Origin: Bacteroidales bacterium H3
GTDB taxonomy: Bacteria > Bacteroidota > Bacteroidia > Bacteroidales > Muribaculaceae
DNA: 64,000 nucleotides
Direction of reading: 5' to 3'
Assembly: GCA_001701135.1 (NCBI GenBank)
Contig: DAAN01000019.1
Location: 137,025-201,024, forward strand
Positions 2,013-55,625 of the stretch are shown in pieces. Position 1 is the stretch's first letter. Each line of letters starts with the position of its first letter. The notes under the pieces were generated by a model, which ran no database searches, was not told the origin of the DNA, and was given only the letters and a program-made list of their open reading frames with translations. A program made the position numbers and the translations under genes.

Positions 2013-4292
2013 TTAGTCGCGGTCGCGCAGACGGTAACAGGTGTCACTGAGGATTTTGAGCAGCGAGTCGCTGTCGAGTGCGCAGAAGTCGCATTCGCGG
2101 GCGCAGATAAAGCACCCCGCCACGTCGATGGCGCCGGGCGAAATAAGCATCTGTCCGGGATCTGTGCCGTAGCAGGCCGGCCGGTGTGCCCGGCGGGGTA
2201 TTACCAGCACATCCACGGTGCGGTCGTCGCGGCGCATCATATAGAGGTTCATGCGTGGTTCGGCCTCCCCCTTGTTTTCGGGAAGCATGGCCAGCACATG
2301 TACGATTTCGTGCATGCGGCTCATCAGCTGCTCCCGGGTGGCAACCGAGAAGAAGATGTGCCGGTAAGGGAAAGCGCGCGCCGCAGCCGACTCGAAGATG
2401 GGGAGGTCGGCAGAGCGCACCGCCTGGAAATGCATATGGTCGGGAGCCGACGCACCGCACTTTGCACCATTGTAGAACACCACCATGCCGGGTAGACGTC
2501 CCGACAGCTCCATCATGTCGGCCACGCGGCGCAGATCGCCGGGGCTGTCGGAAAGCGACTGCGGAGTGTGGGCTACAGCCGCGATTGTGAGATGTCGCGG
2601 AAACACCGGATAAGGATTCACGAGACCTTCATACCCTTCCATCACCGGATAGACCTCCTGAGAGTCGGGGCGGTTGTCGGCGCAGAGGAAACAAGGGCGG
2701 GCGGCGATGGATGCGGCATCTACTTTAGCGCCCGACGAGACGGCACGCGCGGGGTTAAAGATGGCCCGAAAGTCGAATTCGTCAGCCTCGATGTGGCGTG
2801 TCTCCACGTTGGCGAGCGCCTCGGTGTTGGTGCGGGCAAGCGGCCACTCCCTGAGCTGGTTGTCGACAAATTCGGTGATGCGGCGCGATTCCTTGCGCGA
2901 GGTCTGGAAATACTCTTTGGCGGCAAGACGTTTGCGGGCCTCGATCTCAATGCTGCGGAGCAGATCCTTATAGATGTTGTTGGCGTTGACGCGTTCCTGC
3001 GGGAGCGCGGCATCGGAATTGCCGCTCCAGCGGCGGCAGAGATACAGCGAGTCGAAAATGCGCCCTATACGGTGGCGCCGCGATATGCGCAGCCCCAGCG
3101 CGTAATCCTCGCCGTAGCTGACATTGGGCACCCCTATCTGGCGCAGCAGTGGAGTGAAGAACGCACGCGGAGCGCCCAGACCGTTGATACGCAGGGCGTT
3201 GTTGTGACCGTTGTCGTCGGTCCACTCCTTGTGGTCGATCAGACCGGGAGGCAGAGGATTGCCGTCGAAATCGGTAAGCTCGTATGAACCGATGACCATG
3301 CCGGCGCCGGTGGCGCGGAAGCAATCGACAATGCGGCTGAGCACGTTGCTGTCCTTATATTGGTCGTCGCTGTCGAGCTGCACTGCAAACCGGCCGCAGG
3401 CGGCATTGCGCACGCCATATTCCCAGCAGCCGCCGATACCAAGGGTGGTCTCCTCAGGGATCAGATGCACCACCCGGGAATCGGAGGCGGCAAGCGCGGC
3501 AAGCGTTTCGGTGGTGCCATCGGTTGAATGGTTGTCAACGACGATGACGTTGAATGAAAATGGAGCCGTCTGACTCAGAGCCGATTTCACGGCGTCGGCA
3601 ACGGTGGCCACGCGGTTGCGCACCGGTATTATCACCGATGCCTCAACGGGAAATTCCCCTTCATCGAAGCTGAGGGTGAATGTGCGCTCGTCGAGCCATG
3701 CGCCGATGCGGCGCAGATAGTCGGTGAACACCTCCTCGCGCTCGCGCTGCACGGCAGCGTTGCGGGGATCCACGTAGTCAAACTGTTGCTCGCCCGAGGT
3801 GCGGCGGTCGGCCACGGATGCCGTGTAGAGATATTCGGGCACATGCACTATGGCGGCAGGGCTGTGCTGGGCAAACCAGAGGCGAAGGGCATAGAGTCCG
3901 CTGTGCTCCGACTCCACGGGCGCGGTCTCGGTGCCGAAAAGATGCATCGACACCACCAACAGAGGGCCAAAATCGAAATCGTCGCGCACCGACCCGGGCT
4001 GGTATGGCGCAAGGGGGTGCGGCCCGTCGGGCGTACGGTAATCGCAATAGAGGAGCAGGGCGCCGGTGTCTTCGGCGAGCTGAAACAGACGTTGTCTCGA
4101 CGATTCCGACAGCTCAATGTCATAACCGTCGAGAGCCACAAGCTGCCACTCGGCGCCGCAGTCGCGTCGGCTGGTGAGTTCGTCGACAAGCTGCCTGGTA
4201 CCTATTGTGGGGGATACCCTCAGTATATTGGCAGGAGAGCCGGCGGCAGCGCTTGCACGCGTGCCGGTCTGATTGGTCAGAGTATTATCCAT
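2013..4292 (-). CDS. GT2 glycosyltransferase fused to DUF4922 (HIT-like) domain
   Basis: 759-residue fusion. Residues about 1-210 are an uncharacterised region. Residues about 217-430 are a GT-A family 2 glycosyltransferase (ASVIIPVRNR, VVDNHSTDGT, and the DXD-like QLDSDD at about 305-310). Residues about 515-759 match DUF4922, with the HIT/GalT-like signature NGAKCGASAPDHMHFQ containing His-x-His at about 619/621, the motif of nucleotidyl transferases and phosphorylases. The C-terminus adds FICARECDFC, a possible metal site. One polypeptide thus combines sugar transfer with nucleotide-sugar or sugar-phosphate chemistry. No signal peptide, so probably cytoplasmic. Position between the amidase and SpoIID/AmpG genes suggests a role in wall-sugar salvage or an envelope glycan; that is inference. 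Confidence 0.82.
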   Translation of the reverse strand: MDNTLTNQTGTRASAAAGSPANILRVSPTIGTRQLVDELTSRRDCGAEWQLVALDGYDIELSESSRQRLFQLAEDTGALLLYCDYRTPDGPHPLAPYQPGSVRDDFDFGPLLVVSMHLFGTETAPVESEHSGLYALRLWFAQHSPAAIVHVPEYLYTASVADRRTSGEQQFDYVDPRNAAVQREREEVFTDYLRRIGAWLDERTFTLSFDEGEFPVEASVIIPVRNRVATVADAVKSALSQTAPFSFNVIVVDNHSTDGTTETLAALAASDSRVVHLIPEETTLGIGGCWEYGVRNAACGRFAVQLDSDDQYKDSNVLSRIVDCFRATGAGMVIGSYELTDFDGNPLPPGLIDHKEWTDDNGHNNALRINGLGAPRAFFTPLLRQIGVPNVSYGEDYALGLRISRRHRIGRIFDSLYLCRRWSGNSDAALPQERVNANNIYKDLLRSIEIEARKRLAAKEYFQTSRKESRRITEFVDNQLREWPLARTNTEALANVETRHIEADEFDFRAIFNPARAVSSGAKVDAASIAARPCFLCADNRPDSQEVYPVMEGYEGLVNPYPVFPRHLTIAAVAHTPQSLSDSPGDLRRVADMMELSGRLPGMVVFYNGAKCGASAPDHMHFQAVRSADLPIFESAAARAFPYRHIFFSVATREQLMSRMHEIVHVLAMLPENKGEAEPRMNLYMMRRDDRTVDVLVIPRRAHRPACYGTDPGQMLISPGAIDVAGCFICARECDFCALDSDSLLKILSDTCYRLRDRD

Positions 4293-8669: not shown

Positions 8670-8679
8670 TGCATTGTAT

Positions 8680-9036
8680 ATGCTCAAAGGATACGTTGAA
8701 ATTGAGAAACTGAGGCTTTTCAGTCACCACGGAGTGTTTCCGCAGGAACGCACCGTGGGGAATGTTTTTGAATTCACCATAACTCTCTGTTACGATATGG
8801 AGCGCGCCGCCTCCACTGATTGTGTTGAGCACGCGCTGAACTATGCATCGGTTATCGAGACAGTGAAAGAGGTGTCGGAAATCCATTCTGCATTGCTCGA
8901 GAATCTGGCTCTGAGGATAAAAGATGCCATTATCGAACGGTTTCCCCAGGTACTGTCAGGCTCGGTGTGCGTGGCCAAGCCCACGCCCCCTGTCGGCGAG
9001 CAGCTGAACAGGGTGGCTGTGACGCTGCAATGGTGA
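8680..9036 (+). CDS. folB: Dihydroneopterin aldolase
   Basis: 118 residues, full length for FolB, which converts dihydroneopterin to 6-hydroxymethyldihydropterin and glycolaldehyde in folate synthesis. The start of the protein, GYVEIEKLRLFSHHGVFPQE, is the FolB signature, including the HGV/E substrate region. DCVEHALNYASVIETV and SVCVAKPTPPV cover the rest of the T-fold. I chose the ATG at 8680 rather than a TTG two codons earlier, because the TTG would lie at the predicted transcription start. Stands alone, divergent from the wall operon. Confidence 0.93.
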   Translation: MLKGYVEIEKLRLFSHHGVFPQERTVGNVFEFTITLCYDMERAASTDCVEHALNYASVIETVKEVSEIHSALLENLALRIKDAIIERFPQVLSGSVCVAKPTPPVGEQLNRVAVTLQW

Positions 9037-9069
9037 ATTACTCAGTTTGCTATTCAACGGAATGTATTT

Positions 9070-9314
9070 AGAGCTTGTTTAATAATAAATGTTGCCGATA
9101 GGGTCGCATATCCTGAGCCTGATTTCGTCGTGTGACGAAGGATTGTACGTGTGTACACGACTGAGGAACAGGGCGAAAGCAGGCCGGGATATGCGAAACA
9201 AAGGTAACTTTTCATAAAAGATATTTCTAAGAAACATGAAAAAAAGTTTTAGCAGATGTGAAGTTCTTGAAAATATTACCTTTTGTCGGTAACATTTATT
9301 ATTAAACAAGCTCT
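9070..9314. mobile_element. MITE-like palindromic element, 245 bp (element 1)
   Basis: Bounded by near-perfect terminal inverted repeats of about 29 bases beginning AGAGCTTGTTTAATAATAAA; the left copy reads ATGTTGCCGA and the right ATGTTACCGA at the inner end. Inside, TCGCATATCC (9104-9113) pairs with GGATATGCGA (9187-9196), and CCTG and TTCG segments further in also pair, so the left part folds into a long hairpin around a core at 9137-9168 whose tip is TGTAC-GTGT-GTACA. About 85 AT-rich bases without visible structure separate the hairpin from the right end. No transposase or plausible ORF. The core is shared with the element at 54267. Confidence 0.8.
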
Positions 9315-9331
9315 TAAACTCTACAGGAAAA

Positions 9332-9964
9332 ATGACGATTGACAAAGATGCCGTAAAGGCAGAATTCATTGATATGCTGCGCTCCACGGGGCGCGAAGGT
9401 GTCGATTATGTAATCGAGGAGATAGAGCGGCTCGGTTTCTTCGAGGCTCCCGCATCGGCCAACCACCACCTGAATGTGGAAGGTGGTCTCACACAGCATT
9501 CGCTCAATGTGGCCAAGGCCGCCCTGAGCGTGTGGGAGGCGCTCAAACCGCTGGAACCCACCCTCGGGAAAGAGGTTACACGCGACTCTATTATCATCTC
9601 GGCACTCCTGCATGATGTGTGCAAGGCCGACATCTATCGCCGCACCACAAAAAAACGCAAAAACGCACTCGGCATTTGGGAAGACTCCGAGGGCTACCGC
9701 CTCTCCTATAAAGGCTTCCCGATGGGTCACGGCGAGAAATCGCTCGTAGTGGTGCTCTGCAGCGGCATAGAGCTGAGCGACGCCGAGATGCTGGCCATCC
9801 GCTGGCATATGGGAGCCTGGGGCGTGAACCAGCACAGCCTCGAGGATTGCAAAAGCTACGATGCCGCCCGCAAACTCTATCCTTTAGTGTCGATCGTGCA
9901 GGCCGGAGACTCGCTGGCCGCCTCGATTCTCGAACGCGAGGCAGCCGAGCTTGACGAGCTTTGA
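9332..9964 (+). CDS. HD-domain phosphohydrolase-like protein
   Basis: 210 residues of the HD superfamily of metal-dependent phosphohydrolases. GLTQHSLNVAKAAL gives the first His (H56), SALLHDVCKAD the HD pair (H94, D95), and GHGEKS and IRWHMGAW two further His residues, with a late Asp in VQAGDSLA. This order fits the single-domain HD hydrolases common in Bacteroidales and Firmicutes. Substrate unknown; nucleotides or nucleotide-linked ligands are usual. It starts 17 bp after the right end of palindromic element 1, so its promoter must lie in or next to that element. No operon partner: 67 bp separate it from the TrpB-like gene. Confidence 0.85.
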   Translation: MTIDKDAVKAEFIDMLRSTGREGVDYVIEEIERLGFFEAPASANHHLNVEGGLTQHSLNVAKAALSVWEALKPLEPTLGKEVTRDSIIISALLHDVCKADIYRRTTKKRKNALGIWEDSEGYRLSYKGFPMGHGEKSLVVVLCSGIELSDAEMLAIRWHMGAWGVNQHSLEDCKSYDAARKLYPLVSIVQAGDSLAASILEREAAELDEL

Positions 9965-11411: not shown

Positions 11412-11477
11412 TCCCCTCCCCTGCGATGCAATTCTATGCCTGTAACGGCATAATTCATTGATAAAAACATTGAAAAG

Positions 11478-11519
11478 AAAGCGGGAAATCGGAATTGCTC
11501 CGGTTTCCCGCTTCTTTTA
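11478..11519. terminator. Rho-independent terminator, probably bidirectional
   Basis: AGCGGGAAATCGG (11480-11492) pairs with CCGGTTTCCCGCT (11500-11512) around a 7-nt loop, followed by TCTTTTAT. The bases before the stem give a T-rich run on the other strand, so it can also stop transcription from gldN. Confidence 0.85.
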
Positions 11520-11550
11520 TTCACATCTATTCGTCAGTCAACTAACTATT

Positions 11551-11585
11551 AGTTATTCAACCAATTATCAGTTATTCAACTAACG
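11551..11585. repeat. 19-bp imperfect tandem repeat
   Basis: AGTTATTCAACCAATTATC at 11551 is followed at once by AGTTATTCAACTAACG at 11570, and AGTCAACTAACTATT just before is a more diverged copy. It lies between the terminator and the end of gldN. No function seen. Confidence 0.6.
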
Positions 11586-11603
11586 AAAATGGGGTTTAAG
11601 CCG

Positions 11604-12776
11604 TCACTTGCGGCGGCGCACCGACTTGGTGGCTGACGAAGATGATTTTGCAGCTTTAGGTTTCGACGCCTTGGCTTTCTTTTTCTTGGTAGATGATTTG
11701 GACGACGCCTTGGCACGTGAACTGCGCGAACGTGAGGATTTCACCTGCTCCTGTGTCTCGCCGTCGCGCGAAGCGATGTTCTCGCCACGCTCTGCGGCTG
11801 CGGCGGCCTCCTCGGCGGCTGCTTCGGCGGCTTCACGAGCCTCACGGGCTGCTATGATTTCCTCGCGCGAGGGCACCCACAGACCTTTGTCGAACTGCTC
11901 CAGACGGTTCTGGATGCTGTCCTGGGCGCGCTGGCGGTCATCGGGATCGGGATAGAGCTGCATCATCGACTTGTTGGCGAGATTACGCGTCTTGTATATG
12001 TCGCCGTCATACATGTTGCGCGAGAAATAATCGGCATAGGTGTAGCGCGGCAGATTGTTGTTATCGTCGACGAAAATATACTGCTGGGCGAGATAGGGAC
12101 GGAGCTGATCCATGCGCACCCAGAACATGGGGTAGCGCACCGGCTCACCGCCAAAGTCATCGCTGCGGTGCAGCACGGGGCAGATAGCCTCCACCGTGCG
12201 GTGAGTCTTGTTGCTGCGCGAGTCAAACTCCCATTTCTCTATGATATAATATGAAAGCACCTCGTTGGCAGGCACATCGCTCTCCTCGATCGTGAATTTG
12301 GGATTCTTCTCGGTGGAGCCTTTGGCAGGTGTGTTTAGCACGTGGAAGCGGCTGAGCATGTCGGCAACCTTCACGCGGTATTCATCAGTGAAAACCTCCT
12401 TGCCGTCGAGATATTCATAGACAGGAATCTGATTGGCTGCGACCAGACGCATGATGATGCGGAAAAGATTCTCCTGCCCGTCGACAACCTCCTCAGGATA
12501 ATATAGAGGCATGTTCTTGTTGTTGTCGAGCTTGAGGTCGCGGTAAATCACGCGCATCCACTGCTTGTCGGCATCGGCCGTTTCCTGAGTGGCGTAGCGT
12601 TGCTGCATGCGGTCGGTCACTCCCGGGGTCTCAGTCTTCTCGCGGTCGCGGGCCGAGCCGCCGCGACGAACCACCGACGAGCTGGAAGAGTTGCCGGCAG
12701 CGTTCTGCGCCAGTGCGGGGAGCACGCCTGCGGCGAAGACGAGTGCGGCTATGGTGATTTTTGCAAATGCTTTCAT
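11604..12776 (-). CDS. gldN: Type IX secretion ring subunit PorN/GldN
   Basis: 390 residues with a signal peptide (cleavage near ALAQ, residue 24). In the type IX secretion system PorN/GldN forms, with PorK/GldK, the periplasmic ring below the outer membrane. The family core is clear: WMRVIYRDLKLDNNKNMPLY, ENLFRIIMRLVAANQIPVYE, RYPMFWVRMDQLRPYLA, YTYADYFSRNMYDGDIYK. The last 80 residues are a low-complexity Ala/Glu stretch followed by a Lys/Ser/Arg-rich tail, longer than in typical homologues and possibly wall-binding. Last gene of the porT-porP-gldKLMN operon, 54 bp after gldM. Confidence 0.93.
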   Translation of the reverse strand: MKAFAKITIAALVFAAGVLPALAQNAAGNSSSSSVVRRGGSARDREKTETPGVTDRMQQRYATQETADADKQWMRVIYRDLKLDNNKNMPLYYPEEVVDGQENLFRIIMRLVAANQIPVYEYLDGKEVFTDEYRVKVADMLSRFHVLNTPAKGSTEKNPKFTIEESDVPANEVLSYYIIEKWEFDSRSNKTHRTVEAICPVLHRSDDFGGEPVRYPMFWVRMDQLRPYLAQQYIFVDDNNNLPRYTYADYFSRNMYDGDIYKTRNLANKSMMQLYPDPDDRQRAQDSIQNRLEQFDKGLWVPSREEIIAAREAREAAEAAAEEAAAAAERGENIASRDGETQEQVKSSRSRSSRAKASSKSSTKKKKAKASKPKAAKSSSSATKSVRRRK

Positions 12777-53768: not shown

Positions 53769-54059
53769 ATGGACGTTCGCATTCAGGCAATCCACTTCGA
53801 CGCTACCGAAAAACTCGTGGCCTTCATCAACAAGAAAGCCGAACGCCTCCAGCGTCACTACGCCGGCATCACCACCGTCGACGTGAAACTGTCGGTCGTA
53901 AAACCCGAAACAGCAATGAACAAGGAAGCAGTGGTGAAAATCAACATGCCACACGATGAATTCGTGGCCACCAAGGTCGCCGACTCTTTCGAGGAAGCCA
54001 TCGACCTCTGCAACGAAGCTATCGAGCGCATGCTCGCCAAATCCAAAGACAAGAAATAA
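53769..54059 (+). CDS. hpf: Ribosome hibernation-promoting factor (HPF/RaiA)
   Basis: 96 residues, the short form. MDVRIQAIHFDATEKLVAFI, VDVKLSVVKPETAMNKEAVV and VKINMPHDEFVATKVADSFE cover the HPF/YfiA fold. The last 25 residues form the second helix with a Lys-rich end. HPF binds the decoding centre of idle 30S subunits and preserves ribosomes in stationary phase. It is translated from a full Shine-Dalgarno sequence 9 nt upstream, unusual in this phylum, and lies two genes after rpsU, whose product hides the anti-Shine-Dalgarno. Ends at a strong terminator. Confidence 0.94.
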   Translation: MDVRIQAIHFDATEKLVAFINKKAERLQRHYAGITTVDVKLSVVKPETAMNKEAVVKINMPHDEFVATKVADSFEEAIDLCNEAIERMLAKSKDKK

Positions 54060-54154: not shown

Positions 54155-54192
54155 AAGGCGCTGTGTCAAGCATTTTGACACAGCGCCTTTAT
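54155..54192. terminator. Strong terminator after hpf
   Basis: AAGGCGCTGTGTCAA pairs perfectly with TTGACACAGCGCCTT around a 5-nt loop, followed by TATCATATTAT. The rest of 54060-54266 shows no gene. Confidence 0.92.
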
Positions 54193-54266: not shown

Positions 54267-54451
54267 TAAGTAACTGGTCGAAATTATTTTAATGTTTATT
54301 CGAGGAAAATTTTTAGAAGATTTTACTCGATGAAGAAGGAGTGTAGCAAGCTACACGACTGATGAAGAGAGAAAAAGATTCAAAAATTTTTCCGAAGAAA
54401 CATTGAAATAAATTGACCGGTTAGTATAAAATAATTTTGAACAGTTACTTA
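54267..54451. mobile_element. MITE-like palindromic element, 185 bp (element 2)
   Basis: The ends TAAGTAACTGGTCGAAATTA and its imperfect inverse (54427-54451) form terminal inverted repeats of about 25 bases. GGAAAATTTTTAGAAGATTT-like sequence (54304-54324) pairs with the segment 54384-54411, so the element folds end to end. The centre 54335-54366 has the hairpin TGTAGC-AA-GCTACA and the TACACGACTGA string shared with element 1. No ORF. The right end touches the trpS stop codon. It fills most of the 392-bp hpf-trpS gap. Confidence 0.78.
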
Positions 54452-55552
54452 TTATTTTCCGGAGGAGTAGCGGCGGGCCTGGTCGGCGATAAGGGCGGCG
54501 TCGTCGAAATAGTTGATTTTCATGGCGGCGCGCACTTTGTCGAGGGTGTCGGCGGCTTCAAGGCGGGCTGCCTCCGAACCCTTGCGCAGGATGTCGTAGA
54601 CCGCGGGGATGTGCTGCTCCCAGTAGTGCCGGCGCTCGCGGATGGGCGCCAAGTATTCTTCGAGCACGCTGATGAGCAGTTTCTTCACTGTGCCGTCGCC
54701 CACACCTCCACGGGTGTAGTGATCCTTAAGCTCCTGGAGATTCTTGTAATCGGGAAGATATTTGGCGAAATGGCCGTCGTTGGCGAAGGCGTCGAGATAG
54801 TAGAAGGGGCAGTTTCCCTCGAGATGTCCCGGGGAATCGACGGTGAGATGCTCGGGGTCGGTGTACATGCTCTTCACCTTCTTCGCCACCTCCTTGGGGG
54901 TGTCGCTCAGATAGACGCAGTTACCCAGCGACTTGCTCATCTTGGCCTTGCCGTCGGTGCCCGGAAGACGCATGCAGGCGGCATTTTCGGGCAGGAGGAT
55001 TTCGGGAGTTACGAGCGTGTCGCCGTAAGTGTTGTTGAAACGGTCCACAATCTCGCGTGTCAGCTCAATCATGGGCGCCTGATCCTCGCCTACGGGCACT
55101 GTGGTGGCCTTGAAAGCGGTGATGTCCGAGGCCTGGCTCACGGGGTAGCAGAAGAATCCCACGGGGATGCTCTGCTCGAAGTTGCGCATCTTTATTTCGG
55201 TCTTCACCGTGGGGTTGCGCTGCACGCGCGACACCGTCACGAGATTCATATAATAGAATGCCAGCTCGGTAAGCTCGGGCACATGAGTCTGCACGAAGAT
55301 GGTGGATTTTTCGGGGTCGAGACCGGCCGAGAGATAGTCCAGGGCAACCTCAATCACATTCTGACGGATCTTCTCGGGGTTGTCGGCATTGTCGGTGAGC
55401 GCCTGGGCGTCGGCGATCATGATGAAAATCTTGTCGAACTCGCCGGAATCCTGCAACTCCACGCGGCGGCGCAGCGAACCCACGTAATGCCCTAAATGGA
55501 GGCGGCCGGTGGGACGGTCGCCCGTAAGTATCACTTTCTGCTTATTCTGCAT
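54452..55552 (-). CDS. trpS: Tryptophanyl-tRNA synthetase
   Basis: 366 residues from the ATG at 55552; a start at 55576 would overlap the -7 box at 55574-55581 (TAACTTTG). [20 protein letters not shown] holds the HIGH-type motif and [18 protein letters not shown] the KMSKS loop. [20 protein letters not shown] is the TrpRS signature. Length is slightly over the E. coli enzyme (334). It charges tRNA-Trp. Read towards hpf; palindromic element 2 directly abuts its stop codon. Confidence 0.96.
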
Positions 55553-55625
55553 ATATTCTGTGTTTAGAGAGGGCAAAGTTAGGCATTTTTTACTAAATTT
55601 ATAAGGCGGGATAAAGAAAATTTCG

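Follow-up and report, generated by a model that had tools for sequence, protein, structure and literature searches.

Two palindromic elements with different ends are present in the window, that is, in the whole 64,000-nt stretch of Bacteroidales bacterium H3 DNA analyzed here. The original prediction, drawn from the letters of this stretch, was that both contain the same structured core, which raises the question of what these elements are and why one hairpin should be found under two sets of ends. MITEs are usually viewed as passive leftovers of insertion sequences. Both elements are very probably MITEs, driven by an IS5-family transposase in the class of element 1. We also consider it rather probable that they are non-autonomous Bacteroidales MITEs with a selected, strand-specific tandem-GA hairpin module that is read by a common factor.

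Two elements with one structured core

The features of the two elements are as follows.

8674-9036, + strand: folB (Pfam), before element 1
9068-9070, no strand: left copy of the element 1 target duplication, TTA
9071-9313, + strand: element 1, predicted MITE with family A ends, 243 bp
9071-9093, + strand: left terminal inverted repeat of element 1, GAGCTTGTTTAATAATAAATGTT, resembling the left end of the IS5-family element of genome G149
9105-9200, + strand: tandem-GA hairpin module of element 1, with three tandem GA motifs and a bulged A (73.9 bits with model R2, whose source sequences include this element)
9137-9168, + strand: predicted 32-nt core of element 1 (pattern match)
9200-9283, + strand: second, distinct imperfect hairpin of element 1; no match with the covariance models
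9291-9313, - strand: right terminal inverted repeat of element 1
9314-9316, no strand: right copy of the element 1 target duplication, TTA
9332-9964, + strand: HD-domain gene (Pfam), after element 1
53769-54059, + strand: S30AE (hpf-like) gene (Pfam), near element 2
54267-54451, + strand: element 2, predicted MITE with family E ends, 185 bp, with limits TAA...TTA
54267-54291, + strand: left terminal inverted repeat of element 2
54303-54398, + strand: tandem-GA hairpin module of element 2, with four tandem GA motifs and the bulged A absent from the alignment (89.4 bits with model R2, whose source sequences include this element)
54335-54366, + strand: predicted 32-nt core of element 2 (pattern match)
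54427-54451, - strand: right terminal inverted repeat of element 2
54452-55576, - strand: class I W/Y-type aminoacyl-tRNA synthetase gene (Pfam)

The 32-nt core proposed to align without gaps between the two elements is indeed shared: the pattern GAAGGANTGTANNNNNNTACACGACTGANGAA matches exactly at 9137-9168 and 54335-54366, has no further site in the window at up to three mismatches, and had no match in 100 shuffles. The limits proposed for element 2 (54267-54451, TAA...TTA) likewise coincide with the true ends of the element, which directly abuts the end of the synthetase gene. The conserved fold exceeds the core, extending over about 96 nt in each element (9105-9200 and 54303-54398). In a 30-sequence alignment, it forms a single common hairpin of 31 pairs, 25 of which show two-sided change, in agreement with the covariation that had been claimed. 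The swap of one tip pair from C-G to G-C, noted between the two elements, is genuine and recurrent in the same alignment (G-C in 15 sequences, C-G in 14, broken in one). Whole-element folds gave z-scores against shuffles of -13.8 for element 1 and -8.6 for element 2, values such as any inverted-repeat element would give. A short hairpin (GGCGCTGTGTCAA..TTGACACAGCGCCTTT, 54157-54192), located between the S30AE gene and element 2, resembles an intrinsic terminator by eye.

Structure and strand polarity of the module

From its tip outward, the module consists of a tip stem, tandem 5'-GA/3'-AG mismatches spaced by one or two Watson-Crick pairs, and a longer stem. Its composition was counted in 25 non-redundant modules, kept at less than 75% identity from 59 of 61 rows (two rows shorter than 85 nt were dropped). 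Three tandem motifs were found in 16 modules, four in two, two in six and one in one, so that seven of the 25 have fewer than three; a bulged A lies 28-34 positions from the tip in 16. All 75 tandem motifs have the order 5'-GA/3'-AG, and the other three orders were not seen. Known internal loops with tandem sheared G.A pairs, in RNA and in DNA, have this same order, and the motifs of the module are probably of the sheared type. To our knowledge, no described motif has three or four tandem GA motifs in a row, at fixed spacing, within a mobile element.

Over the 40 positions nearest the tip, these 25 modules contain 195 G.A mismatches against one C.T, and 55 G.T against ten A.C, in addition to 13 A.A, ten G.G and one T.T, although the counts within the core depend on models that favor G and A in those columns. 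The seed pattern also fixed the core letters, so that conservation of the core columns in alignment A1 arises by construction. Independent support comes from the counts outside the core and from modules found later with altered letters. At positions 18-40, which lie outside the core, a set of 20 modules selected with a different identity measure has 42 G.A against no C.T and 33 G.T against nine A.C; five later modules, among them L092, a sequence labeled Melioribacteraceae, have six G.A against one C.T and six G.T against two A.C. The modules of the seven carrier genomes found with model R1 mostly preserve the G.A spacing in other letters (e.g., GGAAGATAGC..GCTATCTGAC in G268 and GGAGCGATGC..GCATCGTGACC in G149).

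Six of the longer copies of family A were examined, and in all but L026 a second, inverted tandem-GA module occupies the right half; in those five copies, the inner pair AG/CT is replaced by GG/CC. An inverted second module is also found in a family H copy (L021) and in L029. At L229 (positions 6-266), two tandem-GA modules of unlike sequence follow one another in the same direction, apparently as adjacent elements.

The two strands of the module differ in folding energy. The + strand of the element 1 module folds at -52.2 kcal/mol as RNA, against -35.2 for the - strand; with DNA energies, the values are -27.3 and -22.0, and an alternative tip is preferred. For element 2, they are -27.3 and -18.9 kcal/mol as RNA, and -12.3 and -11.0 as DNA. 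Among 20 modules, the + strand is the more stable in all 20 with RNA energies and in 19 with DNA energies, the mean difference between strands being -13.5 and -5.0 kcal/mol, respectively. As this difference is larger under RNA energies, it weakly suggests that the folded strand acts as RNA rather than as single-stranded DNA.

The original prediction also held that a structured hairpin is under selection. A family with a structured core, covariation and one folded strand is supported. Pairing of the outer arms, however, is partly expected in every inverted-repeat element, so the case for selection comes from the pattern of G.A mismatches and their polarity, rather than from pairing by itself. 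These mismatches persist in otherwise paired arms and, almost without exception, occupy one strand in a single order; from the sequences compared here, selection on the folded strand therefore appears quite probable.

Distribution among genomes

The two elements had been proposed to belong to a family that a covariance-model search should extend, and relatives are numerous, contrary to the absence of a third member that would have spoken against the proposal. A pattern scan of species genomes gave at least 119 stretches; among the matches listed, 117 of 119 are from Bacteroidia by the submitters' labels, the others being from an uncultured bacterium (L044) and from Melioribacteraceae (L092). 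The latter matches the seed pattern but belongs to a different repeat; it was rejected as a member of the family and left out of alignment A1 and of the orientation count given below. In four carrier genomes, 45, 17, 19 and 6 cores were counted at up to three mismatches, against 0, 1, 0 and 0 for a reversed-pattern control; the pattern has a fixed length and misses cores with longer loops.

With model R1, seven carriers were found among 295 genomes of the order, including the centre genome, G003, and two weak cases (G071 and G218). Model R2 matched 126 of 198 genomes of the family of G003 (Muribaculaceae by label), at least six of which (G003, G004, G006, G008, G149, and G245) had contributed sequences to R2; 31 of the 198 have at least 21 scored candidates. 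In a draw from the phylum under stricter filters, R2 matched two of 395 genomes, G003 and G268, both already known carriers, and this near-empty result doubles as a negative control for the model. Genome G004 (L009) is labeled Alistipes timonensis and falls within the family draw of a MAG labeled Muribaculum; its label may be wrong.

Genome G003 has 191 matches to family A ends and G007 has 82, and many of those listed lie close to contig ends, which is the behavior of repeats that break assemblies. We infer that these elements probably contribute to the fragmentation of Muribaculaceae metagenome assemblies. Searches of a plasmid collection with blastn gave weak matches (best E 0.8 and 0.7), and the core pattern had no match in viral contigs (IMG/VR). 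One IMG/VR viral contig does contain a family A element, with a module scoring 71.7 bits with R2 (L152, positions 11464-11700); in a second viral contig with an end-pattern match (L153), no R2 module was found at E ≤ 0.01.

End classes and target duplications

The prediction of a fixed core with exchangeable ends also holds, one module being found under two classes of ends. By their ends, the elements fall into families A (GAGCTTGTTTAATAATAAATGTT, element 1), B, H and I in one class and C, D, E (element 2) and G in the other, plus singletons. Their size between recognized ends is 156-358 bp, and one E-type pairing, in L028, looks spurious. The copies lie at unrelated sites and target duplications are present, which supports mobility, a question raised with the prediction. 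When chance levels are obtained by pairing left and right flanks from different copies, family A has identical 3-bp flanks in 16 of 19 copies, 16 of them TWA (chance 41%), and family B in 11 of 13, nine of them TWA (chance 27%). The proportions in family H (3/4; chance 42%) and family I (2/4; chance 58%) are not clearer than chance, and target duplication is thus clear for families A and B alone among these four. Among 36 copies of families C, D, E and G, all but one have the limits TAA...TTA (35/36), and none has identical 3-mers (0/36); from these limits, this class is compatible with a 2-bp TA duplication.

A probable transposase partner for one class

An insertion sequence of G268, about 900 bp long, shares its ends with the MITEs of that genome, the left one being identical at 17 of 17 bases and the right one showing two or three differences. 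Its transposase is intact (257 aa) and matches NF033580 IS5 at 230.8 bits, as well as PF01609 and PF13340; its own flanks, TAA and TGA, are non-identical. A homologue in G149, 42% identical to the G268 transposase, belongs to an element whose left end, AGAGCTTGTTTAAAAACTAATGT, is near that of element 1, and the putative tie of element 1 to IS5 rests on this end similarity. A homologue is also found in G003, so that matches are present in only three of the 14 carrier genomes (G003, G149, and G268).

The module itself is absent from the G268 insertion sequence (best score 9.4 bits, against 54 for the adjacent MITE). When R2 was run over 29 of 35 fetched transposase loci, the sole strong match was this same MITE, which indicates that the module is no simple remnant of the G268 insertion sequence. 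A cut-off match of 16.7 bits at L125/L211, which are one place, is the start of a neighboring family A element.

Other candidate partners were set aside. Among 30 DDE_Tnp_1 loci scanned for MITE ends, none was bracketed by a proper pair. The transposase at L141 has two D-type right ends nearby but different ends of its own; similarly, the IS5-type element at L125 has its own ends, with a family A end just outside. For the TAA...TTA class, no driver was found: an IS630-type one was rejected, as DDE_3 had no match in ten genomes, and 12 stretches of 2.1-2.7 kb in G149 contained no transposase-like ORF by eye.

Copies with and without the module

Ten elements with both ends and a length of 150 bp or more were selected through those ends, the ones of G001 from stretches chosen for unusual end spacing or a missing core pattern and the ones of G268 and G269 from the end list. 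Seven of the ten match R1, which was built without them, at E ≤ 1e-3; the misses are L197 (E 0.0035), L200 (0.019) and L194 (0.13). With R2, nine of the ten match (L194 has E 0.016), a figure that is not independent, as six of them (L188, L189, L190, L192, L193, and L196) are in the alignment of R2. Short D-type two-ended elements of 81-98 bp in G001, by contrast with these longer elements, match neither model at E ≤ 1e-3 (0/5). Shortened elements without the module are common, and the module is therefore unnecessary for a copy to persist.

What maintains the module?

In the mechanism that we propose, a transposase acting in trans would cut and paste the ends of the MITEs. The supplier would be an IS5-family (DUF4096 + DDE_Tnp_1) transposase for the TWA-duplicating class, and another transposase, of no assigned family and from a predicted partner with TAAGTANNTGTTC ends, for the TAA...TTA class of element 2. 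One strand of the module would fold into a hairpin in which tandem G.A motifs of the sheared type, typically three, are stacked, and this folded single strand would itself be selected. A factor common to the hosts of the different elements may recognize it when the strand becomes accessible, either in RNA or in single-stranded DNA form; the two inverted modules of many longer family A copies would allow either strand to display one. As a tentative extension, the module may be a recognition head, a portable hairpin carried by transposons with differing ends across Bacteroidales and kept through a host factor that recognizes the exposed strand.

Among the alternatives, the MITEs could harbor a family of small-RNA genes, with a hairpin RNA made from the element's own promoter. 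The strand polarity and the higher stability of the folded strand, most of all with RNA energies, would suit such a function, and Bacteroides is known to have sRNA families in multiple copies (FopS; PMC11697453). However, in the accessible part of that report, the FopS fold consists of a single-stranded 5' part and a terminator hairpin, unlike the module (PMC11697453). Under Rfam 15 thresholds, one tRNA passes in the whole window and neither element does; the top sub-threshold matches at the elements are microRNA-precursor models (26.5 bits against a cut-off of 94, and 18.6 against 76). Genomic setting was assessed in 81 copies (L001-L119 without L092, plus the window, with at least 400 bases per side and repeated flanks counted once). 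Among the matches listed, these copies are intergenic, at a median distance of 46 bp from the gene on each side (with approximate limits), and none of the 81 examined lies inside an ORF of more than 600 bp. They show no orientation bias to their neighbors: left genes are co-oriented in 39 of 81 (p 0.82) and right genes in 48 of 81 (p 0.12), although transcription from an own promoter would need none. On balance, a small-RNA family seems unlikely.

The elements could also be plain MITEs, in which the shared core reflects common descent and recent horizontal spread and the fold is unselected. The patchy occurrence outside one family (7/295 genomes of the order, including the centre genome and two weak cases, and 2/395 of the phylum) fits this reading, as do the many copies of identical score within one genome, such as nine at 75.1 bits in G268, which are as expected after recent spread. 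Yet the arms have strongly diverged while retaining their pairing and their G.A positions, and an inner A-T pair is changed to G-C jointly with its partner in other modules. In addition, correction of the quasi-palindrome would erase G.A mismatches, which outside the core still number 42 against no C.T. Plain descent without selection appears unlikely.

A third possibility is a device for DNA stability, in which the interruptions keep a palindrome of about 180 bp from becoming a perfect substrate for hairpin nucleases or from extruding a cruciform. The whole elements are long inverted repeats, and DNA folding is further suggested by the recurrent loss of their interior. At eight G149 loci (L259-L264; L247, positions 1890-1926; and L254, positions 2508-2544), palindromes of about 37 bp consist of two fused E-type ends, with the junction CAAAAT|AATTTTG in seven and a one-base variant of it in the eighth, and with differing end variants. 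Judged by their sequences, they apparently result from repeated loss of the whole interior, probably because replication slips from one AAAAT repeat to the other across a folded hairpin of the DNA. For the purpose of stability, however, any mismatch would suffice, and the uniform 5'-GA/3'-AG order and spacing would go unexplained, which makes this explanation improbable.

An identity as REP/REPIN-like repeats, mobilized by a RAYT (Y1) transposase, is very improbable, since, although the elements are palindromic, intergenic and of high copy number, with inverted module pairs in long copies that resemble REP dimers and a Y1_Tnp match in eight of 14 carrier genomes, such a match is absent from the other six, including G003 with its 191 family A end matches, no module lies near ten Y1 loci (best 15.2 bits, E 0.31), and target duplications, inverted-repeat ends and sizes of 156-358 bp are not those of 20-40 bp GTAG/CGTC palindromes; mobilization by RAYTs was rejected on these grounds.

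Relation to known elements

The favored reading, MITEs with a selected strand-specific module, can be set beside several known systems. Porphyromonas gingivalis has IS5-family MITEs, namely BrickBuilt, MITE239, MITE464/PgRS and MITE700 (PMC4596501). Like the elements described here, they are found in Bacteroidales, are non-coding and have IS5-family-type ends; compared by description only, and within the part of the source available, two of them contain, in their interior, tandem arrays of a 23- or 41-nt repeat rather than a tandem-GA hairpin (PMC4596501). The Correia elements of Neisseria are also small MITEs, whose transcripts fold and can be cleaved by RNase III, and the portion of their description at hand contains no tandem-GA module (PMC10969869). 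REP, BIME and REPIN sequences share with the present elements a high copy number, a palindromic nature and frequent pairing in opposite orientation; according to the accessible part of the source, REPs measure 20-40 bp and mostly have GTAG or CGTC tags, the GTAG class being tied to RAYTs (PMC3733652). The elements studied here differ in their size, their inverted-repeat ends and, in one class, their target duplications.

No description of a shared strand-polar tandem-GA module was found in the literature searched, coverage of which was partial, so that prior publication is possible; of the exact core strings, the 11-letter one alone matched, in unrelated papers. MITEs as such are already known, but a strand-polar core shared under different ends appears to be new. 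This structured core is absent from the insertion sequences examined and is kept across end families, and its strand polarity demands an explanation. Of the genomes sampled from one family, almost two thirds (126/198) contain the module. A model such as R2 would allow annotators to mark copies, and the fold of the module is specific enough to serve as bait for a protein that reads stacked G.A hairpins.

Hairpin repeats with GA facing GA were also seen in the rejected Melioribacteraceae sequence L092, where short ATTCTGA...GAAGAAT repeats lie at 3779-3809 and 4183-4213, with a further copy on the minus strand. Repeats resembling these are common in several phyla, and those of L092 possibly hint at a broader tandem-GA theme. 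In the same sequence, positions 3692-3779 (- strand) score 26.3 bits with model R2.
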